This document shows, in pieces, positions 3,534 to 34,101 of a DNA stretch of 64,000 bases (its first letter is position 1; the number at the start of each line of letters is the position of its first letter). The position numbers and the translations under genes were made by a program. The notes beneath the pieces were generated by a model. It did no database searches and had not been told where the DNA came from. It saw only the letters and a list, made by a program, of their open reading frames with translations. Origin of the DNA: Bacteroidota bacterium (GTDB taxonomy: Bacteria; Bacteroidota; Bacteroidia; Chitinophagales; Chitinophagaceae); assembly GCA_026391455.1 (NCBI GenBank), contig JAPLEH010000067.1, positions 1-64,000 on the forward strand. The letters run 5' to 3'.

Positions 3534-3755
3534 ATGGCCGTACAAAAGCCCACCCCCGAAGACATTCTGAAAGCCCTGCTGCACGATGAAGACATACCCG
3601 ACCCCCTGGAAGAACTAATCGCCACCGGCGAAGCCATCTGCAATATGATCCGCATTTCCGAAATGGATCACCTGGCCAAAGATGCGTTTTATCAGTTGGA
3701 AAGACAGTTTGGGTTTTATGCGCGGTTGACGCAGCTGTGTATAGATAAAAGATGA
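3534..3755 (+). CDS. Small acidic protein of unknown function, intact paralogue of the pseudogene at 596
   Basis: 73 residues, not recognised. It is acidic in its first half (EDIL..LLHDEDIPDPLEE), has a central LIATGEAICNMI segment, and ends in a predicted helix YQLERQFGFYARLTQLC. No signal peptide or membrane segment is present, so it should be cytoplasmic. The only support beyond the open frame is homology to the degraded copy at 596-823, which shows the family existed as a protein-coding unit. The two copies bracket the Thoeris genes in the same orientation. The last codons and the stop lie inside a heptamer word array (GATRATA type), so the C-terminal DKR is encoded by repeat DNA. Confidence 0.65.
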   Translation: MAVQKPTPEDILKALLHDEDIPDPLEELIATGEAICNMIRISEMDHLAKDAFYQLERQFGFYARLTQLCIDKR

Positions 3756-3785
3756 TAGATAATAGTGGATAGATGATAGTGGCTT
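3744..3785. repeat. Heptamer word array, GATRATA type
   Basis: Six consecutive 7-bp words starting at 3744, including GATGATA at 3751 and 3772, GATAATA at 3758 and GTGGATA at 3765. The words drift in sequence but never in length. The stop codon of the upstream gene (3753-3755) lies inside the array. Confidence 0.6.
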
Positions 3786-3840
3786 TTACTTCGAAGGTCT
3801 TAGCCTGAGGCAGATAGCTTTCATTTCGAAGCGTTGGTAA

Positions 3841-3958
3841 AGCTTTATTTGCTCAGGGCCGCCCCTGCCCCAAAGGGTCTTGCCTAATTTAGGCAAGCCT
3901 CCTTTGGGGCACCATAAAGGGTTTTGCCCCACTGTGGGGAAAACCCTTAATGCCTTAA
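3841..3958. repeat. Cluster of nested palindromes between two word arrays
   Basis: GCCCCAAAGG (3867-3876) pairs with CCTTTGGGGC (3901-3910) and encloses CTTGCCTAA/TTAGGCAAG (3879-3887/3889-3897). A second hairpin pairs 3917-3932 with 3934-3948 (AAGGGTTTT, CCCCAC) with one bulged G. GCCTTAAGGC follows at 3952-3961. The cluster resembles a composite REP- or MITE-like element. It sits between heptamer arrays ending near 3785 and starting at 3960. Confidence 0.6.
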
Positions 3959-3959
3959 G

Positions 3960-3994
3960 GCTTGCAGCTTGCAGCTAAAAGCTTGTAGCTTACA
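3960..3994. repeat. Heptamer word array, GCTTGCA type
   Basis: Five consecutive heptamers: GCTTGCA twice, then GCTAAAA, GCTTGTA and GCTTACA. It lies immediately upstream of the -7 element of the dehydrogenase gene. Confidence 0.6.
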
Positions 3995-4018
3995 ACTCCC
4001 CACTCGAAGCAATCTTCC

Positions 4019-4026
4019 TAACTTTG
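4019..4026 (+). promoter_or_regulatory. Candidate -7 element TAACTTTG
   Basis: It matches the Bacteroidota TAnnTTTG consensus, 46 bp before the chosen ATG at 4072. No TTG is found at the ideal -33 distance. Its position overlaps the upstream ATG at 4024, which argues against that start. Confidence 0.45.
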
Positions 4027-4071
4027 CATCGAAAACCCATTTATAACCACACTCTCTTCAAAACCGATTGT

Positions 4072-4974
4072 ATGACCATCACAGGAACAATAGCCGTAAT
4101 CGGCGCCGGCACTATGGGCAATGGTATTGCTCACGTATTTGCACAACATGGTTTCAAAGTAAATATCGTAGATGTATCCCTGGCCCAACTGGATAAGGCC
4201 CTGGCCAATATTGCCAAAAACTTCGACCGGCAGATCGCCAAAGGAAGCGCCACCGAAGAACAGAAAAAAGCAGCCCTCGCTAATATCAGCGTATACTCCG
4301 AACTGGCCAAAGGCGTGGCCGATGCTGCCCTGGTAGTGGAAGCCGCCACCGAGAACGAAGAACTGAAATTGCAGATCTTTGAACAAATAGATACGTTCGC
4401 CCCCAAAGATTGCATTCTAGCTACAAATACATCTTCCATTTCTATTACCAAAATAGCTGCCTCCACGGGCAGGGCCGGTAAAGTGATCGGTATGCACTTT
4501 ATGAATCCCGTACCCGTAATGAAACTGGTGGAAGTAATCAACGGCTATGCCACCGATAAAGAAGTAACGGATGCCATCGTTGCCCTTAGCAAACAACTCG
4601 GCAAAATACCCTGCGAAGTAAATGACTACCCCGGCTTTGTGGCCAACCGCATCCTGATGCCCATGATCAATGAAGCCATCTATACTTTATTTGAAGGTGT
4701 GGCCGGCGTGGAAGAAATAGATACCGTAATGAAACTCGGTATGGCACACCCCATGGGGCCTTTGCAACTGGCGGACTTTATCGGGCTCGATGTTTGCCTC
4801 GCCATTCTCCGTGTACTGCATGATGGATTCGGCAATCCCAAATACGCCCCCTGCCCCCTGCTGGTAAACATGGTAATGGCCGGCAAACTGGGCACCAAAA
4901 GCGGCGAAGGGTTTTACCATTATACCCCCGGCAGCAAAGACCTGGTGGTGAGCAGCCGTTTCAGGGGCCAGTAA
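4072..4974 (+). CDS. hbd: 3-hydroxyacyl-CoA (3-hydroxybutyryl-CoA) dehydrogenase
   Basis: 300 residues from ATG 4072; an upstream in-frame ATG at 4024 lies in the probable -7 element and adds 16 residues unlike the family. Residues 7-16 (IAVIGAGTMG) are the NAD-binding Rossmann loop. NTSSISIT carries the catalytic serine region, and MHFMNPVPVMKLVE (from about 142) holds the conserved His and Glu of the His-Glu pair. The C-terminal helical domain (about 185-300) includes the NDYPGFVANRILMPMINEA signature. The length equals that of stand-alone dehydrogenases, without a crotonase fusion. It interconverts (S)-3-hydroxyacyl-CoA and 3-oxoacyl-CoA in the cytoplasm, in fatty acid oxidation or butyrate-type metabolism. 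No other beta-oxidation gene is adjacent, so the pathway role is inferred. Confidence 0.93.
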   Translation: MTITGTIAVIGAGTMGNGIAHVFAQHGFKVNIVDVSLAQLDKALANIAKNFDRQIAKGSATEEQKKAALANISVYSELAKGVADAALVVEAATENEELKLQIFEQIDTFAPKDCILATNTSSISITKIAASTGRAGKVIGMHFMNPVPVMKLVEVINGYATDKEVTDAIVALSKQLGKIPCEVNDYPGFVANRILMPMINEAIYTLFEGVAGVEEIDTVMKLGMAHPMGPLQLADFIGLDVCLAILRVLHDGFGNPKYAPCPLLVNMVMAGKLGTKSGEGFYHYTPGSKDLVVSSRFRGQ

Positions 4975-5001
4975 TACATGCAAACACTGTCCATACAAAG
5001 C

Positions 5002-5032
5002 TTGCAGGATTGCGTTTTTTTTCGTATATTTC
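5002..5032 (+). promoter_or_regulatory. Bacteroidota-type promoter before the lipoprotein gene
   Basis: TTG at 5002-5004, a 20-bp spacer, and TATATTTC at 5025-5032 (one mismatch to TAnnTTTG). Transcription would begin about 10 bp before the ATG at 5049. Confidence 0.5.
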
Positions 5033-5048
5033 TATGAAGAAATAGCAC

Positions 5049-5873
5049 ATGAAAAAAAATCTTTTTGCGATTGTCAGCATCCTGCTGGCCGGTTTTGTCC
5101 TTGTCTCCTGTAAAAAAGAAAACGATGCACCGGAAGAACCGCAAGGCGTGAACTTTAACCAGTTGCTGAAAACGGTTACTACGTCCAACTACACCAATCA
5201 AAAGATCACGACAGAATATGGATATAATGCGTCCGGAAAAGTGATCAGCATTACCACCACCGGATCGACAAACGGCGGGGTGGGCAATTTTACCAATACC
5301 GAAATCATTACCCGCAATGCCCAAGGCCTCCCGGAAACGATTGAGTTTACCTCCATTTCTGCCAGCGGCACTACCCGCATCAGCACCCGCAACAAGTTTG
5401 ATGGCACGGGTAAAACCATCGGGACCATACAGGTGATTACCGGGCCTCAGCAAACCCGCGACAGTGCCCTCTATGTGTATTCCGGCAATCAACTGGTACA
5501 GCGCCCCGAATACCGCAGTATTAACAATGGCCCTTATTCGCTGCTGGTTACTTCGCAATTTCAATACACCGGTTCTGGCAGTCTCGACAAAGCCATCTTT
5601 GCCTGGACCACCCATCCGGGTATCGATACACTCAGTTTCAACTATGATGATAAGGTGAATTCATTGCCGTTTACCCGGGCCGATGCATTTTACTTTGCAG
5701 AACTCTTCTATGATGATTATAAATCGGCGAATAATATTACCCGGTACAATAATCCCAGCATCAGCTCCTATACCAGCGAATTCCGCTATTCAGCCAACAA
5801 CAAACCCCTCTACCGCAAGAAATCATTTCCTGGTACGGCGAATTTTGACGAGACGTTGTATTACTATGATTGA
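5049..5873 (+). CDS. Surface/periplasmic lipoprotein with YD-like repeats
   Basis: 274 residues. The N-terminus MKKNLFAIVSILLAGFVLVSC is a lipoprotein signal with a cysteine at 21, followed by KKENDAPEEP. Charged residues right after the cysteine are common in Bacteroidota surface lipoproteins. The body contains short beta-rich segments such as YGYNASGKVISI and YVYSGNQLVQ, the kind of strand-turn-strand units seen in YD/RHS-like and DUF4595-like lipoproteins. The C-terminus is aromatic (ETLYYYD). No catalytic motif is seen and function is unknown. It has its own promoter at 5002-5032 and is followed by repeat DNA, so it is probably monocistronic. Confidence 0.8.
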   Translation: MKKNLFAIVSILLAGFVLVSCKKENDAPEEPQGVNFNQLLKTVTTSNYTNQKITTEYGYNASGKVISITTTGSTNGGVGNFTNTEIITRNAQGLPETIEFTSISASGTTRISTRNKFDGTGKTIGTIQVITGPQQTRDSALYVYSGNQLVQRPEYRSINNGPYSLLVTSQFQYTGSGSLDKAIFAWTTHPGIDTLSFNYDDKVNSLPFTRADAFYFAELFYDDYKSANNITRYNNPSISSYTSEFRYSANNKPLYRKKSFPGTANFDETLYYYD

Positions 5874-5918
5874 TGGGGGTATTTGGAAGAGGGGAGTTTC
5901 CTTCGTGGGGGAAGAAAA

Positions 5919-6026
5919 AGGTTCAATAGGTTACATAGGTACAATAGGTTGCATAGGTTTAAGAGGTTCCAAAGGTTCAAGAGGTTCAAGAGGTTTAAGA
6001 AGTTACATAAGTGACATAGGTTGCTG
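5919..6026. repeat. Array of twelve 9-bp words, AGGTTCAAG type
   Basis: Twelve back-to-back nonamers fill 5919-6026 with no indel. AGGTTCAAG occurs at 5973 and 5982, AGGTTTAAG at 5955 and 5991. Only the first three to four letters are well conserved. It lies in the gap between convergent genes. Confidence 0.75.
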
Positions 6027-6058
6027 ATGCCTGAGCGTAGCCGAAGGCAGGTTGAATA
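6027..6058. repeat. Small palindromic element between two word arrays
   Basis: ATGCCTGAGCGTAGCCGAAGG followed by CAGG folds into a short imperfect hairpin (GCCT/AGGC ends, CGTAG loop region). Sequences of the CCTGAGCG-TAG-CGAAGG kind are widespread dispersed palindromes in Bacteroidota. It separates the nonamer array from a heptamer array. Confidence 0.5.
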
Positions 6059-6114
6059 CAGTTTGCAGTTGGCTGTTTGCTTGTAGCTCCCACCTTGAAG
6101 CTTGTTACTGGCTG
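6059..6114. repeat. Heptamer word array, CTTGTAG/CTGTTTG type
   Basis: Eight heptamers in register from CAGTTTG at 6059 to CTGGCTG at 6108, most beginning with C(A/T)(G/T)G or CTT. Sequence varies but the 7-bp period is kept. Confidence 0.5.
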
Positions 6115-6123
6115 TTCCATTAT

Positions 6124-6155
6124 CACATTAGCACATCAGCACATTAGCTAATTAG
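6124..6155. repeat. Octamer word array, CACATTAG type, across the yigZ stop codon
   Basis: CACATTAG, CACATCAG, CACATTAG and CTAATTAG in exact succession. The stop codon of the minus-strand yigZ gene (6152-6154) is part of the last word. The same octamer array recurs at 34070-34101. Confidence 0.65.
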
Positions 6156-6754
6156 CATTTCGTTAGTTCAACACTTCTCAATTCGTTCAATCGAAATAAA
6201 ATTTCTTCCAATCGGTTTTTCGGAAGGCCTGCTTCTACTACACAGAATAGTTGGTTATCCTGTTTATGAATGACACAGCCGAAATGTTTGATGATCTGCA
6301 TTACCGGATGAATCTGTGTATGATCGAATTCCATGCGGTAATTGATGAGAACAGGCTTTTGCACAATGGGCGTTACCTGCAGGGCGAGGGAGGCGGCGGT
6401 TTTGTAGGCGTTGATAAGACCGGGTACGCCGAGCAGTGTGCCGCCGAAATACCGTACCACAACAATGAGTACATCCGTGAGTTGCTTGCTGTCGATCTGA
6501 CCCAGGATGGGTTTGCCTGCCGTGCCGGATGGTTCGCCATCATCGCTTACGCGAAACTGGATGCCATCCAGCCCGAGTCGGTACGCAAAGCAATGGTGTA
6601 CGGCTTTTGGATGCTCTTTTTTCAGTGCAGCAAGCTTTTCTTTAAAGTCAGCTATGCTCACTAACGGGTATGTATATGCGATAAATTGACTGCCGCGGTC
6701 TTTGAATTCGGCCATGCCGGGCCTGTCGATGGTAAAGTAGTAATCGGGATTCAT
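6152..6754 (-). CDS. yigZ: YigZ/IMPACT family protein
   Basis: 200 residues. The N-terminal UPF0029/IMPACT domain covers about 1-125, with FKDRGSQFIAY, HHCFAYRLG, the SDDGEPSGTAGKPIL signature (about 74-88) and VVRYFGGTLLGVPGLINAY (about 99-117). A smaller C-terminal ferredoxin-like domain (DUF1949 type) follows. YigZ proteins are cytoplasmic; the eukaryotic relative IMPACT regulates translation through GCN2, but the bacterial role is not established. The start codon overlaps the stop of ribD by one base, so translation is probably coupled. The stop codon lies inside an octamer array. Confidence 0.92.
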   Translation of the reverse strand: MNPDYYFTIDRPGMAEFKDRGSQFIAYTYPLVSIADFKEKLAALKKEHPKAVHHCFAYRLGLDGIQFRVSDDGEPSGTAGKPILGQIDSKQLTDVLIVVVRYFGGTLLGVPGLINAYKTAASLALQVTPIVQKPVLINYRMEFDHTQIHPVMQIIKHFGCVIHKQDNQLFCVVEAGLPKNRLEEILFRLNELRSVELTKC

Positions 6755-7869
6755 CAGTGTGGTATCGTAGGTTGAAATTGTTCGATGGTATCGGTGAGCA
6801 GCCGGGTGGTTTCTGCGAGCCGGGCCGATGTTAATTCCGGGGCGGCCAGTCCGCTGCCTTTTCGCATATCCATGGCCGTTAGTACCCGGGCTTCATCCCA
6901 GGCATTCGCTTCGATGAAGGAGCGAAGCAGCGTGGCCCCGCCCTCCACCAATACACTTTGCAGTTGCAATTGATACAAAGCCTGCAACAATTGTGGTATG
7001 AGGGGTTCGTTTTTATTCAGTTGGTAATAAGTCGTATTTCCTTCTTCGGCAGACTTACCCGCATTGAACACAATGGTCTTTACATCTCCATTGAATATGC
7101 GTAACGTGGCGGGAAGCCGTCTGTCCATATCCACTACCAGCCGCACAGGTGAAGGTCCCGGCCAGAGGCGGTTGGTGAGTGCGGGATCATCCCATAAAGC
7201 GGTATTGGTACCCACAAGGATGGCCGCTTCTTCGCTGCGCCAGCGGTGTACAAGGCGATTGGATATTTCGTTGCTGATAAGCCAGCGTTCTGCCGGAATG
7301 CCTTTATCCGCTGCTGGTAACGGGGCGATGAAACCATCGGCGGTTTGGGCCCATTTCAAAATGATATATGGCCGTTTTTTTTCGTGAAAGCAAAAAAAAC
7401 GTTTATTCAGTTCGCGGCATTCCGCTTCCAATACCCCAACGATCACTTCCATACCTGCGGCCTGTAATTTTTCAATGCCTTTGCCATTCACTGCGGGAAA
7501 GGGATCGCGGCATCCGATCACCACGCGGGGTATGCGATGGCGGATGATGAGGTCGGCACAGGGAGGCGTTTTTCCGAAATGCGCACAGGGCTCTAATGTC
7601 ACATATAAGGTTGATTCGGCGATCTGCGCTGCAAATCCATTGTTGATGGCATCCTCTATACAATTCACTTCTGCATGGGCCTGTCCGTATTGTTTATGCC
7701 AGCCTTCCCCGATGATCCGATCCTGATACATCAGCACCGCCCCCACCAATGGGTTGGGTGCTACATAGCCCGCTCCCTTTTTCGCGAGGGCGATACAACG
7801 TTGCATGTATGGTGAGTGGTGAATGGTCAATTGTGAATTGTGAATTGTCAATAGAACCCCGATAGCCAT
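6754..7869 (-). CDS. ribD: RibD, bifunctional riboflavin deaminase/reductase
   Basis: 371 residues as drawn. The N-terminal deaminase domain has PNPLVGAV, the zinc motif HAEVNCIEDA and LEPCAHFGKTPPCADLI; the C-terminal reductase domain begins near ILKWAQTADGF. It catalyses the deamination and NADPH reduction steps of riboflavin synthesis in the cytoplasm. The start is uncertain: residues 1-21 include LTIHNSQLTIHHSP, which is encoded by a heptamer array. Family members have about six residues before the conserved YM (Tyr21-Met22 here), so a TTG start at 7830 (MTIHHSPYM) or ATG at 7806 are realistic alternatives to ATG 7869. It overlaps yigZ by one base. No other rib gene is nearby. Confidence 0.93.
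   Translation of the reverse strand: MAIGVLLTIHNSQLTIHHSPYMQRCIALAKKGAGYVAPNPLVGAVLMYQDRIIGEGWHKQYGQAHAEVNCIEDAINNGFAAQIAESTLYVTLEPCAHFGKTPPCADLIIRHRIPRVVIGCRDPFPAVNGKGIEKLQAAGMEVIVGVLEAECRELNKRFFCFHEKKRPYIILKWAQTADGFIAPLPAADKGIPAERWLISNEISNRLVHRWRSEEAAILVGTNTALWDDPALTNRLWPGPSPVRLVVDMDRRLPATLRIFNGDVKTIVFNAGKSAEEGNTTYYQLNKNEPLIPQLLQALYQLQLQSVLVEGGATLLRSFIEANAWDEARVLTAMDMRKGSGLAAPELTSARLAETTRLLTDTIEQFQPTIPH
7810..7851. repeat. Heptamer word array, TTGTGAA type, in the ribD N-terminus or leader
   Basis: Six heptamers: TGGTGAG, TGGTGAA, TGGTCAA, TTGTGAA twice, TTGTCAA. It ends 3 bp before a possible ribD ATG (7804-7806) and would encode residues 7-20 if the longer start is used. Confidence 0.65.
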
Positions 7870-7923: not shown

Positions 7924-7986
7924 AAACAGCCAGCTTCGAGCTGCGAGCTATCAGCTGCGAGCTTTGAACAGCCAGTGACAAGCTAC
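7924..7986. repeat. Heptamer word array, GAGCTGC type
   Basis: Nine heptamers from AAACAGC (7924) to AAGCTAC (7980), including GAGCTGC, GAGCTAT, CAGCTGC and GAGCTTT. AGCT sits at a fixed place in most words. The array ends 5 bp before the MITE-like element. Confidence 0.65.
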
Positions 7987-7991
7987 AAGCC

Positions 7992-8170
7992 ATTGTTGTC
8001 CGTTAAAACTATTTATTAGTTTGAAAATCAATTCAGACCCCTCCCCAAGCGCTACGCGCGTTTCTTTCATCCGCACGTTGTGCGAACTCAGAAACCCCAA
8101 AGGAGAGGGGCTAGAACCCGCTCTGGGGCAATGTTTCAGGGCTTTGCAAAAAGTTTCCCCGGACAATAAT
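7992..8170. mobile_element. MITE-like element, copy 1 (179 bp)
   Basis: It begins ATTGTTGTCCG and ends CGGACAATAAT, giving imperfect terminal inverted repeats. Apart from a 52-bp segment at 8049-8100, it is nearly identical over its whole length to the reverse complement of 33937-34063. The extra segment is bounded by CCCCAA on both sides, as expected for gain or loss between short direct repeats, and holds a CGCAC/GTGCG hairpin. There is no coding capacity. Any transposase would have to be supplied in trans. Confidence 0.75.
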
Positions 8171-8216
8171 GCCTCAAAGCTGATAGCTGACAGCTCGTTG
8201 CTCAAAGCTCGCAGCT
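8168..8216. repeat. Heptamer word array, xxxAGCT type
   Basis: Words such as CAAAGCT (8175, 8203), GATAGCT, GACAGCT and CGCAGCT, each ending in GCT at the same phase. It follows the MITE-like element directly; the array on the other side is also AGCT-based, so the element may have split one array. Confidence 0.6.
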
Positions 8217-8822: not shown

Positions 8823-8830
8823 CGTATATT

Positions 8831-11800
8831 TTACAAGCTCAGCAATGTAATCACCACACCAGTAGCCGCTGTAAGGGATGATCCTGTATTCAGGGTCAGG
8901 CTGTTGATGGTTACGTTGGAGGTTACGTTTGGATAATTGGGCAATGATCCATTGATTACTACATTGGAAGTAGGTCCGGGTATTTCACAAGCCGACCAGT
9001 TGCGTACATCAAACCAGTCGGTACTTACGGCACCGGTCCAGGTCATCGTGCCGGTGGTACTGTTGGCATATTCATCTGCACCCATATCCGGGTTGGTAGC
9101 GCTCCTTGTTTCATTGTCATAGTCAACGGTAATACCGGCAATCGGAGTACCTCTGCGGTGCAGGTTACAGTTGCTGCCGGTCACCAGGTGCAGATCGGTT
9201 GCAGATACAAATACCGGTGCCACGCTGATGGAATTGGCATCCTGTGTGGTGGCGGTCTGCCAATCTGTGAGTGTTACCTGGCTGGTGGTCTGGAAGCCGA
9301 TATTCTCTGTACTTACATAATCGTTGTAATTGATGGTACCGAATGCTGCAGCCACGCCCTGGTTGATCACTGAATAGTTGACACCCACTGTCTGTGTGGT
9401 CACCAGGATATTGTTGCGCAGGTTTACGCCGCCTGCAGCAACAGCCGCTGCCAGATTAAGGGCTGCAGGTTGTCCGCCTGTTGCAACCTGTTCAGTATTC
9501 ATCAGTACCGTATTGTAATAAACCTGATAACCGCCGCCATTATTGATCATTAATCCATAACCGTTGTCAGACTGATCCTGGCCATTGAAGCCCTGTGAAG
9601 CCACATCGCTGATAAAGTTATTGGTAACGGTCACGTTCGCAGCGGTGCTGGTTGAGTTGAGGAAGATTCCATTACTGCCCCAACCAGTGGTGTTATTCTG
9701 TTTGATATCCCGCATTTCATTCTTCGTGATAATACCACCGTTAATTGTAGCACCAACCAGTATACCGCTCATGGTAGAAGATGAACCGGTAGAAGAGCTT
9801 ACTCCAATCACTTTATTCTCACTAATGGTAAAGTTGGATGCATTCTGCAATGCAATACCGCGGAAGCTGAGTTTTTCAGCCGCTACAGCAGAGCCAAAGT
9901 TATTCTTCGTGATTACCCAGTTATCATCCAGTGTGGTGGCATCACCCAAAGCAAAGATGGCATTCTGCACTCCTTTAGCTGTAAGGTTCTGTACAGTGTT
10001 GTTGGAATTGGGGCGTCCATTTTCTGCAGCGCTGCCGAATGTGGCACCGCTACCGGCAATGATACCCTGTCCGCCAAATGCACCCGGGCCTACCATGTTG
10101 AAATTCTTCAGTGTATTGTTGGTTGCTCCGGCGGTAGCGTCGGTACCCATCCAAATCACCGAACCGGTACCAGTGTTGGTAATGGTGAGGTCAATGCTGG
10201 TTGAACCGTTATTGGATCCATCAATGGTCACATAGTCAGCACCTGCCAGTTTCAGGATAGTGGTGGCATTGTTGCCGCTGATAGAAGCCGTAACACCGGT
10301 ATTGGGTTTAATGGTCAGTGTATTTACACTGCTGGCATTGGGGTTAGCATTGATCGTGATCGGGAATGTTTCACCGGCACTGTAGCTGGCATCGATCAGG
10401 TTGAACACTACAGGTCCGGTAAGACAGGCTGTATTGTAGGCTGTGATGGCCGCTGTAAGTGTGGTATAGTTACCCGCTGCACCTACTGTATAGGCACCAC
10501 TTAATGTATTGCTGATCGTATAACTTGCTGGTGTGGTAGGTGCTGTAGTCACCGTATTCACATCGGTAGCCACCAGGCCTGCTGCAGGGTTAGATCCGAT
10601 ATTGGGTGTACCTGCCAGATCCTGCGCAATGACATAGTATTGTACCACATCACCGGCGGTGAGACCACCCATCGTAGCTGCAGTAATCGTGAAATCCCAT
10701 GTACCGCTGATACCGTTTCCAGTGGTCAGTGTTCCCTGATTAGAGAACCATGCACCGGCATTTTTTCGGAAATAGATCCTTGGTTGTAATGCACCGGTGG
10801 TCGGTACGCCTGTAACATCCGCGATGGTTACGCCAGCGAGTGTTCTGTCCGCAGTAGCACAAGTAAAGGGCAGCGCGGTGTACGTAATAGTAGGTGCTGC
10901 GGCATCACCAGCCTGTTCGTAAGCACCAATGGTTGGTGTGGTTACACTCCGTGTAAATCCGGTAATATCGGTGGTAATCCCAACAATCGGTGTACCCGCA
11001 TTCACAAGAGGTGAACCAAGTTGTGGAATCAGGTTATTCACTGCATTGTATTGCGGATCGGTGGATATAGAGTTGGCATCCTGTGCAGTTGCACCCTGCC
11101 ATGCAGCCAGTGTAGCATAGTTGGTCGCATTGAATCGGCCCACATTGCTGGTCACATTGGTACCGGCAGCATACAGGTCGTTGTAATTGAGCACAGAACC
11201 TGTCAGTGTAGTAGCCTGCGTATAATAAGCCCAGAAATTACCGCCGGCAATAGCACTGGATCCGGTAATGCTGAAACTGTTGTTTTGTACTTCGATATTG
11301 GTACCCACACTGGTAATATTGGCATCACCATTTGCAAAAGCAGCAGCAAGTCCGGAAGCACTATTTGCCAATTGACCGGTAAGATGTACCGAGTTATAGG
11401 TGATCTTATCACCATAACCCGCACTGGCGAGGATACCGGTCAGGTTCCACACGGCACTCGTACCAGTTGAGTTGATCCGGTATACGATGTTGTTATAGAT
11501 CTGTGCGTTGGACGGGTTACCTACGGTAGTATAAGTAGCATTGGTCATGGCGATACCATAGATCTTCGGTGTGCTGGTACCGGTATACGCCAGGTCATGT
11601 ACTTTGTTATTGAAGCACAAACCATTTTTAAAGTCAAGCAGGCGGATACCACCAAACGGAGTGGATGAAGTATTGGTAGCATTTACTACATTCTGCACTT
11701 CATTGCCGGATACAATCAGACCTGATTGTCTGTCAGCATTAATTGCGAGTAATGAATGACCTTCTCCTGTTACAGCCGTACCGAAATTGTTATTGCTGAT

Positions 11801-14800
11801 TACGTTGCCCTGATCAGGAGTAGCAGCTCCAAAACCAAAGAGGGTAACACCATTGATGGTTTTGCGGAACAGGTTATTGTTGATCGTATTGGTATTGTTG
11901 GCTTCTAATCCGGCGGTGGTAATACCAATAGTGGTGCTGCCACCAATATGGATACCGGTAAAGCTGGTAGTGGAAGAATTACCTTCTATGATACTGTTTT
12001 TAATCGTGTTACTGTTAGCACCATTAGAAGCTGCTGCCGAAGCTAACCAGATTACCGCGTTGCCCGTGGTAGTAGTGGTTGTGTTACGGATAGTAAGGCT
12101 TCTGTCTGTACCGCCACTATTGCTTCCATCAATGGTTACATTATCAGCACCGTTCAATTTGATCACCGCACCCGTACCTACGGTACCGGTAAGTACTGAA
12201 GTGGTGTTTGGTTTAATGAGTATAGTAAATGGTCCTCCGCACACATTGTTCACGGTATTCAGTACCACAGTGCCGGGTTCTGTAACTGCAGCATCGACGA
12301 TGTTGGCAGTAAGGTTGGCTGAAATACCATTGGTGTTAATGGCCTCGAACAATCCACCTGTTCCGGTGAGTGTGGGATAGTTGCCCGCTGCACCGATGGT
12401 AACGGTACCACTGAGTCCTGCACTGGCTCCAATGGTGCGTGATCCTGCAGGTGCCTGCGGTGTGGGGTTGTTGGCTTCTCCCACGATCACCAAATTACAT
12501 TCTGCATCCACAGCATTGGTCAATGTGGCTCCACAGGGCACATCGTAGGTGAGCCAGAAATAATTGGTTCCTGTAGAAAGCACTTGTGATCCGGTGATAT
12601 TAAATGATCCGTTGGGTGCAGCCACCGTAGAACCATATTGTGTGGTAGTGGCAAAAGTTGAGCTGGTACCGGTATACCAGAGTTTGGCATTGGTAATATC
12701 TGTAAGTGGTGCTGTGGTGCCATTCGTGTTCAGAGTAAACGAAGTGGCACTCAGCGGAGATAACGTGCCGGATGTTACGATCTCCACGCCGATCACCTGC
12801 TGGTTAGTAGTTCCTCTTGGCACACTACTGGTATTGGCCTGTGTGGTGGTGCTGGATACATAGATCATTCCACTGGCGGGCGTTCCATCAAATTCATCGG
12901 CACCCACATCCACCTGTGTACCACCACCATTCGTGTTAGTGGGGCCGGGCCTTGTTTCATTATCAATATCGGTAGTAATTCCGCCTGCAGGTGTACCGCC
13001 AGATTCTATCTGAGTGGCAGTTGCATTAGGAATATGCAGGTCAGTTGCAGAAACAAATGCTGGCAGTTCGGAGAATGAATTCGCATCACCTCCGGAACCG
13101 CCGGGTTGTGCTGCTTTCCAGTTGGCCAGTGTCAGGGCCGTTCCACCCCAATCACCGAGGCTGGAAACATTGATTGAATGCAGGTCATTATAATTGGAAA
13201 ATGCAGCGTTCCATCCTGTAACAGAGCTTGTGCCTATTGCAAAATGGTTTCCGGTACCGGTACGCTGGTTGGAAAGGATATTATTTAAAATAGATTGGGT
13301 GCCGGTGGTAGATGTCCTGTACAGGCCATAGGTATTATTCGCAGCCGCGGCAGTACCGCCAATAAATATGCTGTTGAAGAATACATTGTTATTGCCTGTT
13401 GTCTCCAGCAACACACCCCTTAATAAAGGCTGGGTTGACGCAGTACTTTGCGTAAGACTGATAAAGTTGTTGCTGTAAGTGGCGGCACCAGAAGGTGCAT
13501 AAACACCAGCGACAATGGGAGCTGATGTGGTGGTACCGGTACGCGTAGTCGTTAAATTATAAATCTTATTGCGCGTAATTACTGTTGGGGTACCAGTTGA
13601 TGATACGCCGGCCACTTCAATACCAAACATAGGATAAGTAACTCCTGCATTCGCTCCGTTAAAGCCAAGTGTGAAATTGAAGATTTGGTTATCCTCCACC
13701 AGGTTTCCTGCTGTAGTGGTATTCAGAAGGATTCCCACAGGTACAAATGTGCTGGTAAGCGTGGTGTTGGTGGTACCTGTATGAATAAAGTCGCGGATCG
13801 TATTACTTTTAACTGTTACAGTTCCTGCTGTTACATAAATACCAGCCAGTCTTTCAAAGTCCGCATCATTATAACTGAGGTTCCTGATTGTATTATTCCT
13901 GATATCCACCGTACCGCTGCTGCTGCTAGCGATACCAACCAGTGAGTTGGCAGAGCTTATACTGTTTGCGGTAGCTTCACCAATGGTATTTCCGGACGTG
14001 GTACCCACATTTACATTTCCGCCGGTAACATTGATAATGTTGCTTGTGGCAGTAGTGGATGTCACCACGATATTACCGATCAGGTTACCCTGTATATTGG
14101 AGGCCGTGGTAGTTCCTGCACTTAACGTAATAGCAGAAATACCGTTGCTGCTTGTCAAAGGAGTACCGGTCCTGGTGCTGTTGGCACCACCAATACTGTT
14201 ATTATTTATGGTATTTGAATTACCTCCCGAAAGTAAGCTGATCGCCACGAGTGCTGTAGTTCTCGTTGCAGTTTGATAAAGAGCATTTGAATTAACTGAC
14301 CAGCTGTTACCATTTCCGGTAGCAGTTACCAATACGCCTGATCCAGTCCAGTTGAATATGTTATTATTAGTGATGGTATTAGATGCGTTGGGGCCACCTG
14401 CGCTTCCGCTTGAGTAAATCGCATTGACAGGCACAGTAGCACCATCCCGGATATCATTGTTATCAATGGTATTGCTACTGTTGCCAGTGGCTACTGTGGT
14501 GGTGCTGAATACAATGGAACCAGATGTGGCTGATGAGTTCACACCCAAAATAATGGAGTTCTTCACTGTATTACCAGTCGCATCATTAATAAATTGAACG
14601 GTAGAGCCTCCGGTATTGGTATTGCTGATGGTCATATCCTTCGAAGATGTTCCGTTATTAGATCCATCAAAAGTTACATTATCAGCACCATTAAGGTTGA
14701 TCAATGGGCCTGCCACAGAACCAGACAATACGGTGGTTACACCGGTATTGGGTTTAATGGTGAGGGTGAAAGGTCCGCCGGAGCAACCGTAGTTAATCGC

Positions 14801-17800
14801 GTTGAGTGCATTGGCACCAGTTTCGGCAATCGTTGCATCAAGGATCGTTACAGTCGTATTACCAGAAAGGTATTTGGCATTGATATCCGCGAAGAGGCCT
14901 GCTGCACCGGTGAGCGTGGTATAGTTACCGGCTGCACCAACGGTAATACTGGTGGGCAGCGCTGAAGCTAATGTATAACTGTTGATAACGGGTCCTATCG
15001 GGAAGGCAGTACCAGTTAAGGCCACACTCGTGGGAGCCACGGCGAATATACCGCTATTGATACCCACGTTGGGAGTAGCAGCAAGGTCCTGTGCTGTTAC
15101 AAAATACTGGATCACATCACCGGGGGCAACGGCCGACTGCAATAAGCTGAAATCAGTGGTGAAAGTAAATGGAGAAACTGCATTAGAAGCTTCCACATAT
15201 TTCCATCCGTTGTCCGCATTGGTATTGCCCGCAAACGTGTTGGCATCCGTTGATTTTTTGTAATACAGGCGGGGTAATGTACCGGGTGTAACATTAATTC
15301 CGGAAGCGTCTGTAATCGTGGCTGACAAAGTTCTATCAGTAAGACAGGCTGTGGCCGGTATCTGTGTATAGGTGATAACCGGTGCAATCAAATCCAGTAC
15401 AGTAAAGTTTCCGGCATCTGCACCAATATCAACCGGTGTGAGGCCAGCCCTGGTTTGCCCGTCAAAATCATCAGTAGAAGTAGTTGTTGCAGTACCGGAA
15501 GATTCTATTACAGTAGCGCCGGCAATATGGAGATCAACTGTTGCCGCATTTCCTGTTGCACTGATAAATCCGATCTGCGAAAGTGAAGGTGCCTGATAGC
15601 TGCCTGCATCCTGACCGGAGGCCGACTGCCAGGTAGACACGGTATAGTTGTTGGTACTATTACGAATACAATTCGCTGTCGTACTGGAATAATAAACGTT
15701 ATGTGAACTGGTCAATCCGGACGGATTGGGCAATGTACCGGCGAAAATAGCCGCCAGGTGCAAAGCAGTGCCAGCAGCATTGGTCCGGTCATTGGTAAAG
15801 ATATTATTCCGGAAAGTGCGGGTATTCACGGTTGTGCCGGTGTTGAAAGCCGATGTGTTACTGATTGATGTTGCCACACCCGTACCACCGATATAAACTG
15901 AGTTATGAATAATCTGCGATCCGGAGGTGCTGGTGATATCATTGATACCTGTGATTGTGTAACCGTTGGTAATACTCGCACCCGCATCAGTAATACCAAG
16001 TCGTACCATATTGTTTTGCATGGTATGAAGACCACCACCTACCTGAATACCGGCAATAACACCACTGGTACTGGAAGTTGATAAGTTCAGTGAGTGTACA
16101 AAATTGCGGGCAATCGTATTAGTTCCCGTAGTGGGGCCATTGTAGAAGATACCGATCAGGTTGGTAGCTGCGGTCGCATTGGTATTGATCAGTGAAAAAA
16201 CCGTATTCTGACTTACTGTTTGGCCGGCAGTAGTGGCGGCCGTTTGTGCGATACCAATAACTGATGACGCGGAACCGGTACCTACGTTGGGAGCCCCGCT
16301 GCTGATATTGCGTACGGTGTTTCCGGTTACGGTCTGCACACCACCCGTGCTTCCGGGGGTGATGATACCAATTACCTGTGCACCCGTACCTGTACTGGTA
16401 TGTGTAATGTTTACCACTGTATTGTTGCTGATCGTATTGGTAGCAGAAGTAGAGTTACTTACAATACCGGCCAGCAGGTTGTTGGTAGCATTGGTAATAC
16501 TGTTAGCAGTAATGGGGCTTCCGATCGTATTACCGGTAACGGTATAACTGGTGGCAGCACCCTGGAAGGAGATACCCCGTACATTGATTGTACCGGTAGA
16601 TGAGTTGCTCACGGCAATACCACCGATCGTATTATTAGAAATATTGATTACACCTGGTGTACCTGTACCTGCAATGATACCACAGAAGAACGGAGCAGTA
16701 GATGTGGTTGACTGCACGAATGTAACACTATTGGTAACTGACTGGCTTCCCAGTGTATTACCAGTCACATTACCAATATTAATATTACCGGTAACGGCGG
16801 AGATCAGTGATTGTGCAGTAGAAGTGCTGGCGGTTGTCACCGCAATATTCTGAATAGTGTTGCCCTGAACCGATGTTGCTGTAGTGGTGCCTACCGTAAG
16901 CTGAATACCTCTGAACACCAGGGTAGCAGTTGTATTGAGCGTCATAGCCGTGCCACCACAATTGGGAGCCGTACCACCGATAAAGTTACCGGATATAGTA
17001 GTACCGTTAACAGTATTGCTGCTGGCAAGGATGGCGTTGAATGTAGATCCTGCACCGAAAGTGGTTCGGCTGGCAGTCTGATAGAAACTGTTGCCACTGA
17101 TCACCCAGTTGGTATTATTCACACCCAGGTTCACGCCCACACCGGCGTTGGTCGTGTTGGTCGAACTATAGAAGTTGAAAATATTTGAATTAGAAATGGT
17201 ATTGGCATTATTGGGGAAAGCAGCGGTAGCAATAGACACCACGCCGTTAAGTGGTGTAGTGGCCCCATCCTTAATAGTACAATTATCGATGGTGTTGTTA
17301 CTATTGCCCAGGCTACCGGTGGTAGTGCTGAATAAAACCACACCACTGGTGGCAGCCGTATTCACACCCTGTAATATGGTATACTGAATCTGGTTATTTC
17401 TACCATCATTGATAAAACGAAATGCTGTACCGGAGGTACTCGTATTCTCAATCGTAAGATCTTTGCTGGTACCTGTCCCACCCTGACGTCCGTCGATAAT
17501 CCAGAAAGCACCACCATTTACATCAAAGGTGGCGGTGGTATTGGCACTGGTGATAGTTTTAGCGCCTGCACCAGCAGCCGGACGGATCGTAATGGTATTG
17601 GTAGCACTTGCACAGGGAACTGCACCTAAAACGATGGGGAATGTTGCATCAGTTGTATTGGTATAAGCTGCGTTCAGTTCAAAAATTACCGGACCGGTTA
17701 CTCCATTCAAAATTGCTGCATCCACTGCTGCCTTTAATGTTGTATACCCGGATACTGCACCAGGGCCCACATCATAAGTTCCCGTAAGTGAACAGGAATT

Positions 17801-18835
17801 GGTGAGCTGGCTGCCGGTGAGTTCGGTACTGAATGCTCCTTCTGAAACTGCCACCACTTTCCAGTAATAAAGTGTGGAGCCTGCAAGCCCCCCCTGTGTG
17901 CTGGAGGTACTGTTTGCCGGCAATTGTGCTACCTGCGTAAAAGTGATATTGTCGGTAGAACGGAACACCAGGTAAGTCAATTCATTCGTTGCAGCATCGG
18001 TCCAGTTCAGCGTCATACCGCCTGTACCTACTGCGGTAAAGTTCAATCCGGTTGGTGCGGCAGGTACGGTGGGAGTATATTTATAAATCCTTCTGCTGCC
18101 ATCTGCTGCTGAATTCAGGTTTGCAATTGGCCCGGCTGCATAGGTTGGATTATCGGTAAAGGGAGAAGTAGTTGCACTGGCATTCGTAGACGAAGTAACA
18201 TATGCCAGGTTATTGGCCGTTGTATTGGTGGCAAACCCGATAGCAACGGTGGCATCACTTGCACTGCCCGTAGAGGTAATAGACATAGTACCATATACAA
18301 ACTCAATCACCCCGCTAGATTCATATAGGCGTACCTGATAGGTTCCATCGTTTGTAAAAGAAGAAGTCCAGAGCAAGTTCATATTGTTAAACTCTATGAC
18401 CAGACACCTGTTTGGAGCCGTACCCACTATTTTATAATGCGTTTTACCCGCTGTACCTGTACCCAGATCCGCTGCAAATGCAGAGATGATGGGTGTGGTA
18501 ACTGTACCACCGGATACAACGTAGGTACCTGAGCCAGCGGAAGTACCGGTACTGGACAGAGACACAAGACCATTGGTGGTTACGTTGAACTGTGAGTAAC
18601 GGTTACCCATCAGCCAGAAATCGAAACCAATGGCGATCGCAGTGGCATTCACCCCCTGATCCACACTGGGACCACTTACCTGAGTGGTACCAGTTGACAT
18701 ATCAACCGTATTACCATTCTGGTCCAGTGCTAAAGAACCTGTAGTAGTAGTGGAAAAAGCATAGTTGGCAGAGCTTTGTGCAAATGCGGCACTTGAAATA
18801 GCTGCAAATAGCAGAAGGAAGGACAGTTTCCTCAT
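8831..18835 (-). CDS. Giant secreted beta-helix repeat protein (3334 residues)
   Basis: The signal peptide is about 1-19 (MRKLSFLLLFAAISSAAFAQ). It is followed by a lectin-like beta domain (to about 250) and a fibronectin type III domain (about 258-345, PAAPTGLNFT...LNW...YYWKVVA). Four long right-handed beta-helix blocks then start near residues 353, 1298, 2145 and 2778, each opened by a G.Y.VG..GNYTTL-type motif and full of N-rich rungs such as NTIDNCTI and VTIDGSNNG. Bacterial-Ig-like linkers (ITYT..P....DRTL) lie near 1152 and 2652. Each block closes with a GADE or GADA motif. The final module (about 3260-3334) starts TWTGAVSTDWFDVRNWS, but the protein stops soon after with no T9SS sorting domain. 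Very rich in Thr, Ser, Asn and Gly. A cell-surface or matrix role in adhesion or polysaccharide binding is likely; no catalytic residues could be assigned. Confidence 0.88.
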   Translation of the reverse strand: MRKLSFLLLFAAISSAAFAQSSANYAFSTTTTGSLALDQNGNTVDMSTGTTQVSGPSVDQGVNATAIAIGFDFWLMGNRYSQFNVTTNGLVSLSSTGTSAGSGTYVVSGGTVTTPIISAFAADLGTGTAGKTHYKIVGTAPNRCLVIEFNNMNLLWTSSFTNDGTYQVRLYESSGVIEFVYGTMSITSTGSASDATVAIGFATNTTANNLAYVTSSTNASATTSPFTDNPTYAAGPIANLNSAADGSRRIYKYTPTVPAAPTGLNFTAVGTGGMTLNWTDAATNELTYLVFRSTDNITFTQVAQLPANSTSSTQGGLAGSTLYYWKVVAVSEGAFSTELTGSQLTNSCSLTGTYDVGPGAVSGYTTLKAAVDAAILNGVTGPVIFELNAAYTNTTDATFPIVLGAVPCASATNTITIRPAAGAGAKTITSANTTATFDVNGGAFWIIDGRQGGTGTSKDLTIENTSTSGTAFRFINDGRNNQIQYTILQGVNTAATSGVVLFSTTTGSLGNSNNTIDNCTIKDGATTPLNGVVSIATAAFPNNANTISNSNIFNFYSSTNTTNAGVGVNLGVNNTNWVISGNSFYQTASRTTFGAGSTFNAILASSNTVNGTTISGNFIGGTAPNCGGTAMTLNTTATLVFRGIQLTVGTTTATSVQGNTIQNIAVTTASTSTAQSLISAVTGNINIGNVTGNTLGSQSVTNSVTFVQSTTSTAPFFCGIIAGTGTPGVINISNNTIGGIAVSNSSTGTINVRGISFQGAATSYTVTGNTIGSPITANSITNATNNLLAGIVSNSTSATNTISNNTVVNITHTSTGTGAQVIGIITPGSTGGVQTVTGNTVRNISSGAPNVGTGSASSVIGIAQTAATTAGQTVSQNTVFSLINTNATAATNLIGIFYNGPTTGTNTIARNFVHSLNLSTSSTSGVIAGIQVGGGLHTMQNNMVRLGITDAGASITNGYTITGINDITSTSGSQIIHNSVYIGGTGVATSISNTSAFNTGTTVNTRTFRNNIFTNDRTNAAGTALHLAAIFAGTLPNPSGLTSSHNVYYSSTTANCIRNSTNNYTVSTWQSASGQDAGSYQAPSLSQIGFISATGNAATVDLHIAGATVIESSGTATTTSTDDFDGQTRAGLTPVDIGADAGNFTVLDLIAPVITYTQIPATACLTDRTLSATITDASGINVTPGTLPRLYYKKSTDANTFAGNTNADNGWKYVEASNAVSPFTFTTDFSLLQSAVAPGDVIQYFVTAQDLAATPNVGINSGIFAVAPTSVALTGTAFPIGPVINSYTLASALPTSITVGAAGNYTTLTGAAGLFADINAKYLSGNTTVTILDATIAETGANALNAINYGCSGGPFTLTIKPNTGVTTVLSGSVAGPLINLNGADNVTFDGSNNGTSSKDMTISNTNTGGSTVQFINDATGNTVKNSIILGVNSSATSGSIVFSTTTVATGNSSNTIDNNDIRDGATVPVNAIYSSGSAGGPNASNTITNNNIFNWTGSGVLVTATGNGNSWSVNSNALYQTATRTTALVAISLLSGGNSNTINNNSIGGANSTRTGTPLTSSNGISAITLSAGTTTASNIQGNLIGNIVVTSTTATSNIINVTGGNVNVGTTSGNTIGEATANSISSANSLVGIASSSSGTVDIRNNTIRNLSYNDADFERLAGIYVTAGTVTVKSNTIRDFIHTGTTNTTLTSTFVPVGILLNTTTAGNLVEDNQIFNFTLGFNGANAGVTYPMFGIEVAGVSSTGTPTVITRNKIYNLTTTRTGTTTSAPIVAGVYAPSGAATYSNNFISLTQSTASTQPLLRGVLLETTGNNNVFFNSIFIGGTAAAANNTYGLYRTSTTGTQSILNNILSNQRTGTGNHFAIGTSSVTGWNAAFSNYNDLHSINVSSLGDWGGTALTLANWKAAQPGGSGGDANSFSELPAFVSATDLHIPNATATQIESGGTPAGGITTDIDNETRPGPTNTNGGGTQVDVGADEFDGTPASGMIYVSSTTTQANTSSVPRGTTNQQVIGVEIVTSGTLSPLSATSFTLNTNGTTAPLTDITNAKLWYTGTSSTFATTTQYGSTVAAPNGSFNITGSQVLSTGTNYFWLTYDVPCGATLTNAVDAECNLVIVGEANNPTPQAPAGSRTIGASAGLSGTVTIGAAGNYPTLTGTGGLFEAINTNGISANLTANIVDAAVTEPGTVVLNTVNNVCGGPFTILIKPNTTSVLTGTVGTGAVIKLNGADNVTIDGSNSGGTDRSLTIRNTTTTTTGNAVIWLASAAASNGANSNTIKNSIIEGNSSTTSFTGIHIGGSTTIGITTAGLEANNTNTINNNLFRKTINGVTLFGFGAATPDQGNVISNNNFGTAVTGEGHSLLAINADRQSGLIVSGNEVQNVVNATNTSSTPFGGIRLLDFKNGLCFNNKVHDLAYTGTSTPKIYGIAMTNATYTTVGNPSNAQIYNNIVYRINSTGTSAVWNLTGILASAGYGDKITYNSVHLTGQLANSASGLAAAFANGDANITSVGTNIEVQNNSFSITGSSAIAGGNFWAYYTQATTLTGSVLNYNDLYAAGTNVTSNVGRFNATNYATLAAWQGATAQDANSISTDPQYNAVNNLIPQLGSPLVNAGTPIVGITTDITGFTRSVTTPTIGAYEQAGDAAAPTITYTALPFTCATADRTLAGVTIADVTGVPTTGALQPRIYFRKNAGAWFSNQGTLTTGNGISGTWDFTITAATMGGLTAGDVVQYYVIAQDLAGTPNIGSNPAAGLVATDVNTVTTAPTTPASYTISNTLSGAYTVGAAGNYTTLTAAITAYNTACLTGPVVFNLIDASYSAGETFPITINANPNASSVNTLTIKPNTGVTASISGNNATTILKLAGADYVTIDGSNNGSTSIDLTITNTGTGSVIWMGTDATAGATNNTLKNFNMVGPGAFGGQGIIAGSGATFGSAAENGRPNSNNTVQNLTAKGVQNAIFALGDATTLDDNWVITKNNFGSAVAAEKLSFRGIALQNASNFTISENKVIGVSSSTGSSSTMSGILVGATINGGIITKNEMRDIKQNNTTGWGSNGIFLNSTSTAANVTVTNNFISDVASQGFNGQDQSDNGYGLMINNGGGYQVYYNTVLMNTEQVATGGQPAALNLAAAVAAGGVNLRNNILVTTQTVGVNYSVINQGVAAAFGTINYNDYVSTENIGFQTTSQVTLTDWQTATTQDANSISVAPVFVSATDLHLVTGSNCNLHRRGTPIAGITVDYDNETRSATNPDMGADEYANSTTGTMTWTGAVSTDWFDVRNWSACEIPGPTSNVVINGSLPNYPNVTSNVTINSLTLNTGSSLTAATGVVITLLSL

Positions 18836-28343: not shown

Positions 28344-28405
28344 ATTGAAGACCCGAACTATAATCAACTCAAATAAACACCATCCAAAACACTATCTCAT
28401 CATTT

Positions 28406-28468
28406 ATCAAACATCGTACACCGTACACTGTACATCGCACATCGTACATCGTACATCAAACACCGTAC
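28406..28468. repeat. Nine-unit heptamer word array, ATCGTAC type
   Basis: Units ATCGTAC (28413, 28441, 28448), ACCGTAC (28420, 28462), ATCAAAC (28406, 28455), ACTGTAC and ATCGCAC fill 63 bp with no indel. The array ends 10 bp before the ATG of the MocR-type gene, so it occupies the translation initiation region. Confidence 0.75.
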
Positions 28469-28478
28469 ATAATTAAAT

Positions 28479-29927: not shown

Positions 29928-29929
29928 AA

Positions 29930-32167: not shown

Positions 32168-32197
32168 TCTTTCTGCAATAATTTTATATAACGCCGG

Positions 32198-32225
32198 GAA
32201 TCACCTGCTACAGGTGATTCTTTTT
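32198..32225 (+). terminator. Terminator overlapping the 3' end of the convergent permease gene
   Basis: GAATCACCTG-CTA-CAGGTGATTC (32198-32220) is a perfect 10-bp stem followed by TTTTT. The right arm and the T-run are at the same time the last codons of the minus-strand permease gene, whose stop is at 32208-32210. Confidence 0.8.
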
Positions 32226-33638: not shown

Positions 33639-33654
33639 ATAAGAAAGGAAGATA

Positions 33655-33694
33655 ACAAAAAACCTTATCCCCCGCTTGAAAAGAGAGATAAGGT
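33655..33694 (-). terminator. Terminator or attenuator hairpin before the permease gene
   Basis: ACCTTATC (33662-33669) and GATAAGGT (33687-33694) pair across a 17-nt loop; on the minus strand a run of six T follows. It lies just after the stop of the 34-codon ORF and 17 bp before the permease ATG. Confidence 0.55.
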
Positions 33695-33700
33695 CTGAAA

Positions 33701-33805
33701 TCATTTACGCAGTGGCTTCAACCCGAATACCGGCTTTCTATACCGGCTATACTCCCCGGCCGGATACCTGGCTTTCCCGGAAAGACTAACAGGTTTGGAA
33801 GGCAT
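33701..33805 (-). CDS. Possible 34-residue basic peptide (leader ORF)
   Basis: The ORF from ATG 33805 encodes a 34-residue peptide beginning MPSKPVSLSGKARYP and ending FGLKPLRK, rich in Lys (5), Arg (4) and Pro (5). A good promoter match lies about 33 bp upstream (33838-33868) and a hairpin with T-run follows the stop, so promoter, ORF and terminator form a complete small unit. Its TGA overlaps an upstream ATG of the permease frame (ATGA). It could be a small protein gene or a leader peptide controlling the permease by attenuation. No homologue is known to me; existence as a protein is not proven. Confidence 0.4.
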   Translation of the reverse strand: MPSKPVSLSGKARYPAGEYSRYRKPVFGLKPLRK

Positions 33806-33837
33806 TGGATTACGTAAAAAAGTTGTGCGTTGCGATA

Positions 33838-33868
33838 TAAAGGTAAAAAGAAGATTTGTTTTTGTCAA
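33838..33868 (-). promoter_or_regulatory. Bacteroidota-type promoter for the 34-codon ORF
   Basis: On the minus strand TTG (33868-33866), a 20-bp spacer and TACCTTTA (33845-33838), one mismatch to TAnnTTTG. The predicted transcript begins about 25 nt before the ATG at 33805. Confidence 0.55.
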
Positions 33869-33891
33869 TACCCCCAAAAAACCACGGAATC

Positions 33892-33931
33892 CAATCATCC
33901 CATTATCAAATCATCCAATTATCGGATTATC
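33892..33931. repeat. Octamer word array, xxATYATC type
   Basis: CAATCATC, CCATTATC, AAATCATC, CAATTATC and GGATTATC in exact succession. It ends 5 bp before the second MITE-like element. Confidence 0.65.
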
Positions 33932-33936
33932 ACATC

Positions 33937-34063
33937 ATTATTGTCCGGGGAAAGTTTTTGCAAAACCCTGAAACATTGCCCCAGAGCGGGTTCTAGCCCC
34001 TCTCCTTTGGGGAGGGGTCTGAATTGATTTTCAAACTAATAAATAGTTTTACCGGACAACAAT
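33937..34063. mobile_element. MITE-like element, copy 2 (127 bp)
   Basis: Terminal inverted repeats ATTATTGTCCGG (33937-33948) and CCGGACAACAAT (34052-34063) match over 11 of 12 bases. Internally GCCCCTCTCC-TTTGGGGAGGGG makes a GC-rich hairpin. Its reverse complement equals copy 1 (7992-8170) apart from the 52-bp segment there and a few substitutions. No coding capacity. Octamer arrays flank both sides. Confidence 0.8.
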
Positions 34064-34069
34064 AATTAT

Positions 34070-34101
34070 CACATTAGCAAATTAGCACATTAGCTAATTA
34101 T
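34070..34101. repeat. Octamer word array, CACATTAG type, touching the ABC-F stop codon
   Basis: CACATTAG, CAAATTAG, CACATTAG and CTAATTAT fill the 32 bp directly before the stop codon (34102-34104) of the minus-strand gene. It is nearly the same as the array at the 3' end of yigZ. Confidence 0.7.

Follow-up and report, generated by a model that had tools for sequence, protein, structure and literature searches.

The question raised by this locus is why small palindromic elements should lie between arrays of short, degenerate tandem words. The window considered here is the whole stretch of DNA analysed, 64,000 nt forming positions 1-64000 of contig C74 in a Chitinophagaceae (Bacteroidota) genome (G000; 5.5 Mb, 74 contigs). 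A sequence-only reading of the window had reported the order array-palindrome-array in four of four cases, and had proposed either that such elements prefer to insert into arrays or that array and element form one composite system. The results described below favor a two-layer account, which we hold to be moderately probable. A miniature inverted-repeat transposable element (MITE) of the IS4 type lands in the arrays, and the arrays are akin to the inverted arms of elements that carry a gene for the 23S rRNA intervening-sequence protein (IVP; PF05635, S23p, a four-helix bundle). The first layer is largely shown; the second is shown in part and for the most part deduced.

The word arrays are a genuine feature of the intergenic DNA. 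Eighty stretches of the genome were fetched, covering contig C59 whole, C19 minus 99 bases and C58 minus 1,483. Genes were called by a custom script and degenerate periodicity was then scored in these three contigs and in the window with its continuation (the window joined to C74:60001-79900, so that 4,000 of about 771,000 bases were counted twice, with no listed array among them). The array threshold was reached at 1,703 of 126,782 intergenic scan starts (1.34%), at 260 of 644,042 starts in coding DNA (0.04%) and at 0.016% of starts in Markov-shuffled gaps. The 89 mostly noncoding array segments have a period of 7 (44 segments), 8 (26) or 9 (16), the three others having periods of 6, 10 and 11. 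The 7-mer word families include AGCTNNN, AACTTNA, GTGAATN, CAGTTNN and CATCGTA, the 8-mers include ATTAGCAC, AATGTGNN and AAGTCCGG, and the 9-mers include AACCTATNN. Judged by eye, fixed and variable word positions are kept within an array.

With a second threshold, 99 arrays were found in this genome, distributed over 53 of its 380 gaps examined. Arrays occupy 34 of 259 tandem, 8 of 43 convergent and 8 of 72 divergent gaps, and are therefore not specially placed upstream of genes. A search with RibD did not turn up any close relative whose gaps could be set against those of this genome, and syntenic loci of other Chitinophagaceae served as comparison sites. The best RibD matches were Chitinophagaceae records, with at most 66% identity among the named ones and 69%, the closest, in a genome assigned to the same genus. 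The same scan of 80 RibD loci of named relatives, coding DNA included, gave 206 segments, 136 of them at period 7. The arrays turn over rapidly: 13 syntenic pairs held 164 arrays, 143 of them comparable, and opposite these lay the same words in 30, other words in 48 and no array in 65 (each pair being counted in both directions, some loci belonging to several pairs, and coding DNA being kept in).

Two of the four palindromic middle parts are, as the sequence-only reading had recognised, copies of one MITE, and arrays adjoin both copies directly on both sides. The copy at 7992-8171 (plus strand) is a 180-bp long form with an extra internal segment, and its target duplication is unclear (2 mismatches in 8). 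It is flanked by AGCTNNN arrays at 7930-7990 and 8172-8216, the right array being 74% complementary to the left one. The copy at 33936-34063 (minus strand) is a 128-bp short form with an exact 10-bp duplication, ATGTGATAAT in minus-strand reading, between 8-mer arrays at 33888-33935 and 34064-34113 that run in the same direction.

The fetched stretches contain 34 places with this MITE, one of which is merely a 23-bp end belonging to an insertion sequence (IS). Complete forms measure 128-180 bp and have no transposase gene. Both ends were recognised in 22 copies, of which 14 have an exact target duplication of 9-10 bp and 17 a duplication with at most one mismatch. When the MITE and one duplication are removed, an array spans the junction in 15 of the 22 (8 with a stricter cut), as compared with 5.9% of 6,000 random intergenic points (3.5% with the stricter cut; p = 4e-14 for the 15). 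Eleven of 16 MITE targets read RYTNNNARY, a consensus derived from the same 16. This motif is about four times denser in arrays (2.2%) than in other intergenic DNA (0.52%), and has a density of 0.37% in coding DNA. The motif alone is insufficient as the cause of the bias: arrays hold 18.9% of the 698 RYTNNNARY sites in intergenic DNA but 15 of the 22 insertions (p = 6e-7).

The duplications, the continuity of the joined arrays and the enrichment of the target motif in arrays together argue that the MITE inserts into arrays that already exist, and a preference for such sites is largely shown. Preferential insertion, the first of the two earlier proposals, thus holds for this element, and the outcome that would have spoken against it, a majority of the MITE copies outside arrays, was not observed. 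The preference is not absolute. Five copies score at most 11, with little or no array (L035, L011:11766, L020 and L014), and others fall just under the array cut at 12-13 (L022, L010, L024). Taken alone, this result amounts to a clear and ordinary target preference.

The autonomous partner of the MITE is probably an IS4-type insertion sequence. The genome contains 35 occurrences of the end sequence ATTGNTGTCCGG. Among 13 places inspected, eight correspond to the termini of an IS at which the contigs are interrupted, so that just one flank of each end is visible; by eye, seven of these eight ends abut word sequence, and the one in C7 abuts two words only. The remaining inspected places comprise three that look like chance occurrences (C27, C66, C69) and two MITE copies (C2:1005, C68:82542). 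An unbroken IS in C2 has the same terminal motif as the MITE and encodes a protein with DUF4372 and DDE_Tnp_1 domains. The shared ends and this domain content largely show that the MITE is a non-autonomous derivative of an IS4-type (DUF4372/DDE) element. Known IS4-type insertion sequences and their MITEs, together with the target preference of IS10, share with the present system a DDE transposase, short terminal inverted repeats, a 9-bp duplication and a symmetric target. The present system differs in that its preferred target coincides with the array word. As a separate observation, the unbroken IS (L024:3442-4739) is centred in an inverted pair of 8-mer arrays, CATTAGCACATCAGCACATCA on one flank facing its near mirror on the opposite one, and a direct duplication was not seen around it.

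The two other cases are of different kinds. In the first, two neighbouring hairpins at 3866-3952 lie between a 7-mer array of GATGATAG words (3743-3779) and an AGCTNNN array (3960-3994). The left array stops about 85 bp short of the hairpins, which makes this the weaker case; a second copy of the core (3783-3965) was not found in the 80 stretches or in the window. In the second, a short palindrome at about 6028-6053, which recurs in other stretches of the genome, lies between a 9-mer array (AGGTTNNAT, 5919-6024) and CAGTT/AGCTT words. Arrays are therefore present at all four places, as originally reported, but the four do not represent a single phenomenon: the MITE accounts for two of them, a dispersed short palindrome for another, and a hairpin pair, of which no second copy was found, for the last.

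Palindromes between arrays do not form a general rule either. Of 94 intergenic hairpins (stem of at least 8, loop of 3-10), not one lies between two arrays at a distance of at most 40 bp, where about one would be expected; 11 have at least one array at that distance, for an expectation of 7.3% (p = 0.08). A general placement of hairpins between arrays was thus not observed. Conversely, the 7-mer arrays at 7804-7858 (GTGAATN) and 28397-28473 (CATCGTA) contain no palindrome. In four short palindrome families, hand-picked after they had been noticed in arrays, 16 of 22 copies have an array no farther than 60 bp away and 8 of 22 have arrays on both sides, compared with 15.2% and 6.1% of random intergenic points.

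Where the arrays themselves come from is the second part of the question. At L101, one of the syntenic loci compared, a four-helix-bundle gene lies inside an inverted array pair. PF05635, the family of the IVP, which has solved-structure relatives 2gsc and 2rld, matches 12 places in the genome studied here, 11 of them above cut-off. Among 148 Bacteroidota genomes, this one included, 116 have a match and 113 pass the cut-off. The IVP genes of this genome, and the Bacteroidota examples examined, are situated between protein genes, in many cases within operons. As they are outside the 23S rRNA, they are called here IVS-like, and not intervening sequences (IVS).

Inverted word arms accompany most of the IVP genes examined. 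By eye, inverted arrays flank 9 of the 11 resident genes (L180 and L188 being unclear), with words that vary between copies; the inverted flank score exceeds the direct one in 9 of 11, the exceptions being L185 and L188. A first comparison set 43 IVP genes (the 11 residents, 3 from relatives and the 29 best-scoring from other genomes) against 420 genes of this genome, 250-1500 bp long. The median inverted flank score was 25 at IVP genes and 17 at the others (p = 6e-18), whereas the direct score was 17 at both (p = 0.13). Arrays were present on both flanks at 25 of the 43 IVP genes and at 12 of the 420 others. A larger set of 96 genes, 91 of them distinct, was not random, consisting of one best-scoring copy per genome and 40 stretches hand-picked from multi-copy genomes. 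In this set, with left and right flanks of different elements paired as the null, the inverted flanks exceeded the 95th percentile at 65 of 91 genes and the 99th at 38, while positions shifted by 700 bp exceeded the 95th at 0 of 189. The set contains 93 orthologous pairs, and hence the 91 elements are not independent events.

The arrays that lack an IVP gene can be compared with the resident arms by vocabulary. The 6-mers of 96 such gene-less arrays are shared with the 11 resident arm sets at 0.305 on average. Random sets of 11 foreign elements gave a mean of 0.165 and a maximum of 0.265, none of 300 reaching 0.305, and 2,179 non-array intergenic 45-mers gave 0.151; the resident sets are larger than the foreign ones (476 against 389 6-mers on average), which somewhat favors them. 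The share of gene-less arrays with a value of at least 0.25 was 55% for the resident sets, nearly matched by the best foreign set (54%). Among 11 window stretches chosen by hand, nine beat 95% of the 300 foreign sets. The two that did not are the MITE-flanking arrays at 8172-8216, for which 65 of 300 foreign sets were equally good, and at 33888-33935 (72 of 300). The closest resident elements could be named for the other window arrays. Words are common to L186 and the array at 3743-3779, to L181 and those at 3960-3994 and 7930-7990, to L184 and that at 5919-6024, and to L182 and that at 7804-7858; the best match of 28397-28473 is L189, and that of 34064-34113 is L188.

An orthologous gap, bordered by a PaaI-like gene and by a thiolase gene, was located in eight genomes of one genus, and seven gaps (all except that of G175) were compared: one has no IVP, two have a type A IVP with AAGATTT words, and four have type B with TTAGTAT words. 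The IVP gene and its matching words thus change together at one site. Searching with one IVP protein as the query yielded 20 plasmid records, 19 cyanobacterial and one from Azospirillum. At the ten of these 20 loci that were scored, inverted exceeded direct flanks in nine, and four were above the 95th percentile of mismatched pairs. The IVP gene of Azospirillum lipoferum, alone among the copies examined, lies inside the 23S rRNA (RF02541) and has inverted heptamer arms (score 47, against 17 direct). It was also observed that on three cyanobacterial plasmids (L271, L274, L276) the IVP gene is part of CRISPR operons, with the order cas6-IVP-cas4 twice and cas10-IVP-cmr3 once.

With this information it is possible to propose how arrays and mobile elements come together. 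An IVP element would consist of a word array, a core with the IVP gene and a reverse-complementary array, often within an operon. Because its arms are inverted around the gene, the transcript can fold into a long stem. RNase III may cut this stem and make the insert tolerable, by analogy with the IVS of 23S rRNA. The elements presumably move, and slippage would add and remove words. Arms that have lost their gene or partner might then persist as solo arrays of the same kind of sequence, and these would offer landing sites to the IS4-type element, to its MITE and to some short palindromes. The IS4-type transposase would cut symmetric RYTNNNARY-like targets and duplicate 9-10 bp; as arrays of ARYTNNN 7-mers offer such a target once per word, copies collect in existing arrays. 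Many word arrays may accordingly be arms, or leftovers, of IVS-like fold-back elements.

Several results weigh against this proposal. As many as 26 of the 91 IVP elements, including the residents L180, L182 and L188, fall under the 95th-percentile threshold, and direct-orientation flanks pass it in 17 of 91. The IVP gene of a Pseudanabaena plasmid (L271) has direct AGCTAAA arrays on both sides. The arms of IVP orthologues show no clear concerted evolution (28 of 93 pairs), and an IVP insertion with a clean empty site was not found in the loci compared. Words barely track the protein subfamily between loci (rho 0.09, with 7 of 500 permutations as high), and inheritance of the words with the subfamily, convincing by eye, was rejected. 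Lastly, 96 neighbouring pairs of gene-less arrays in this genome comprise 6 inverted and 29 direct ones, and against a shared-vocabulary null an inverted partner within 300 bp was found for 0 of 96 arrays at the 99th percentile and for 10 of 96 at the 95th. Since inverted partners are this rare, the gene-less arrays are not classed as intact elements, and that they are leftover arms is what we infer. The apparent link between arrays and IVP elements in this genome rests on vocabulary, not on inverted geometry. In the relatives, the same search for an inverted partner within 300 bp succeeded for 51 of 210 gene-less arrays at the 99th percentile and for 91 at the 95th. Three of four such inverted pairs fold far better than shuffled sequences (z from -7.0 to -10.6), and the fourth, L113, does not (z -1.6).

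In a rival explanation, the arrays are ordinary degenerate minisatellites, produced by slippage in unselected intergenic DNA, with the MITE drawn by its motif and the IVP genes present by coincidence. The rapid turnover in syntenic gaps agrees with such an origin, as does the mostly solo or direct arrangement of gene-less arrays in this genome. However, insertion of an IVP gene into a direct array predicts direct flanks, and the flanks of IVP genes are inverted; neither would coincidence account for the vocabulary that the arrays of this genome share with its own IVP arms. We therefore regard a minisatellite origin as unlikely, though as the strongest competitor. Selection of the words as binding sites for a protein or RNA, for example in translational control, would account for their fixed and variable positions, and a translational role has been suggested for TAACTGA repeats in one organism (MacGregor 2015, PMC4679880). 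The placement of the arrays, not specially upstream of genes, and their rapid turnover make this explanation improbable.

The second proposal of the sequence-only reading, that array and palindrome move or grow as a single unit, receives some support from the short palindrome families, found in arrays far above random (16 of 22, chosen post hoc). For the MITE it is rejected, since this element has its own duplicated target inside an array that is continuous once the copy is removed. Some MITE copies, such as those at L020:7735 and L014:5720, lie at array-free sites, and ordinary hairpins do not show the array-hairpin-array order. As an explanation of the palindromes, a composite unit is thus very improbable; the idea does fit the IVP genes, with their inverted word arms.

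Similar arrangements are known from other systems. Drosophila Foldback elements have long inverted ends, composed of short tandem repeats, that enclose a variable core, a likeness of layout only, as these elements are eukaryotic and involve other proteins. Cyanobacterial short tandemly repeated repetitive (STRR) heptamers occur with small dispersed mobile repeats nearby; they resemble the present arrays, the comparison being made through the ten plasmid IVP loci only. A close parallel is the IVS of 23S rRNA, which shares the protein family with IVP elements, has complementary ends that pair into a stem and leave the gene in its loop, and carries tandem heptamers beside the gene, the arms being inverted in Azospirillum. 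In Coxiella burnetii, tandem heptamers precede S23p in strain-variable number and the IVS is excised by RNase III (PMC4990558). The difference is that classical IVSs lie in 23S rRNA, whereas the IVP genes studied here lie between protein genes, where RNase III may likewise cut.

Heptamer direct repeats, TAACTGA and others, have been described in Beggiatoaceae, Cyanobacteria and some Bacteroidetes (MacGregor 2015). They are likewise intergenic degenerate 7-mer arrays with fast turnover in the same phyla. That paper treats them as regulatory, and the terms "four helix", "S23" and "intervening sequence" are absent from the part of it available. Among the titles and opening lines of abstracts searched in the open literature, none describes inverted heptamer arms at IVP genes that lie outside rRNA; most subscription journals lay outside this coverage and may contain such a description.

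A wider generalization can be advanced tentatively, and we rate it somewhat below an even chance. The 7- to 9-mer arrays of Bacteroidota and Cyanobacteria would largely be arms, whether intact or solo, from a single class of IVP/S23p fold-back parasite acting at the RNA level; the 23S IVS would be the special case of an element landed in rRNA, and the arms would be landing pads for IS4-type MITEs. If correct, this would join the nature of four-helix-bundle/S23 genes outside rRNA, the origin of heptamer arrays and the clustering of small transposons there. The stem would be expected to be an RNase III substrate, and arrays to track IVP genes across genomes.

Several features of the window and its genome may be added. 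Segment 3860-3995, which includes the hairpin pair, folds well compared with shuffles (z -5.0), whereas 3744-3875, 5919-6060 and 7924-8000 fold no better than shuffles (z 1.5, 0.7 and 0.6); a search of 3500-34500 returned no known RNA family at gathering score. The 8-mer array at 6111-6161 (ATTAGCAC) has only a weak best match among the IVP elements, L188. Arrays of different families are in places connected by a linker word, AACAGCCAG/CTGGCTGTT, seen at 6108-6116 and 7925-7933 and several times in C19; 12 of its 15 intergenic copies are no more than 60 bp from an array. In C59 (55964-56682, 233316-233809 and 206738-207090), longer repeat units, built from CTTTGTGTGC or CATCTGTGT words, occur in alternation with 8-mer arrays. 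Finally, a minus-strand reading frame of about 10 kb occupies 8831-18835 of the window and contains internal direct repeats about 1.9-2.5 kb apart.

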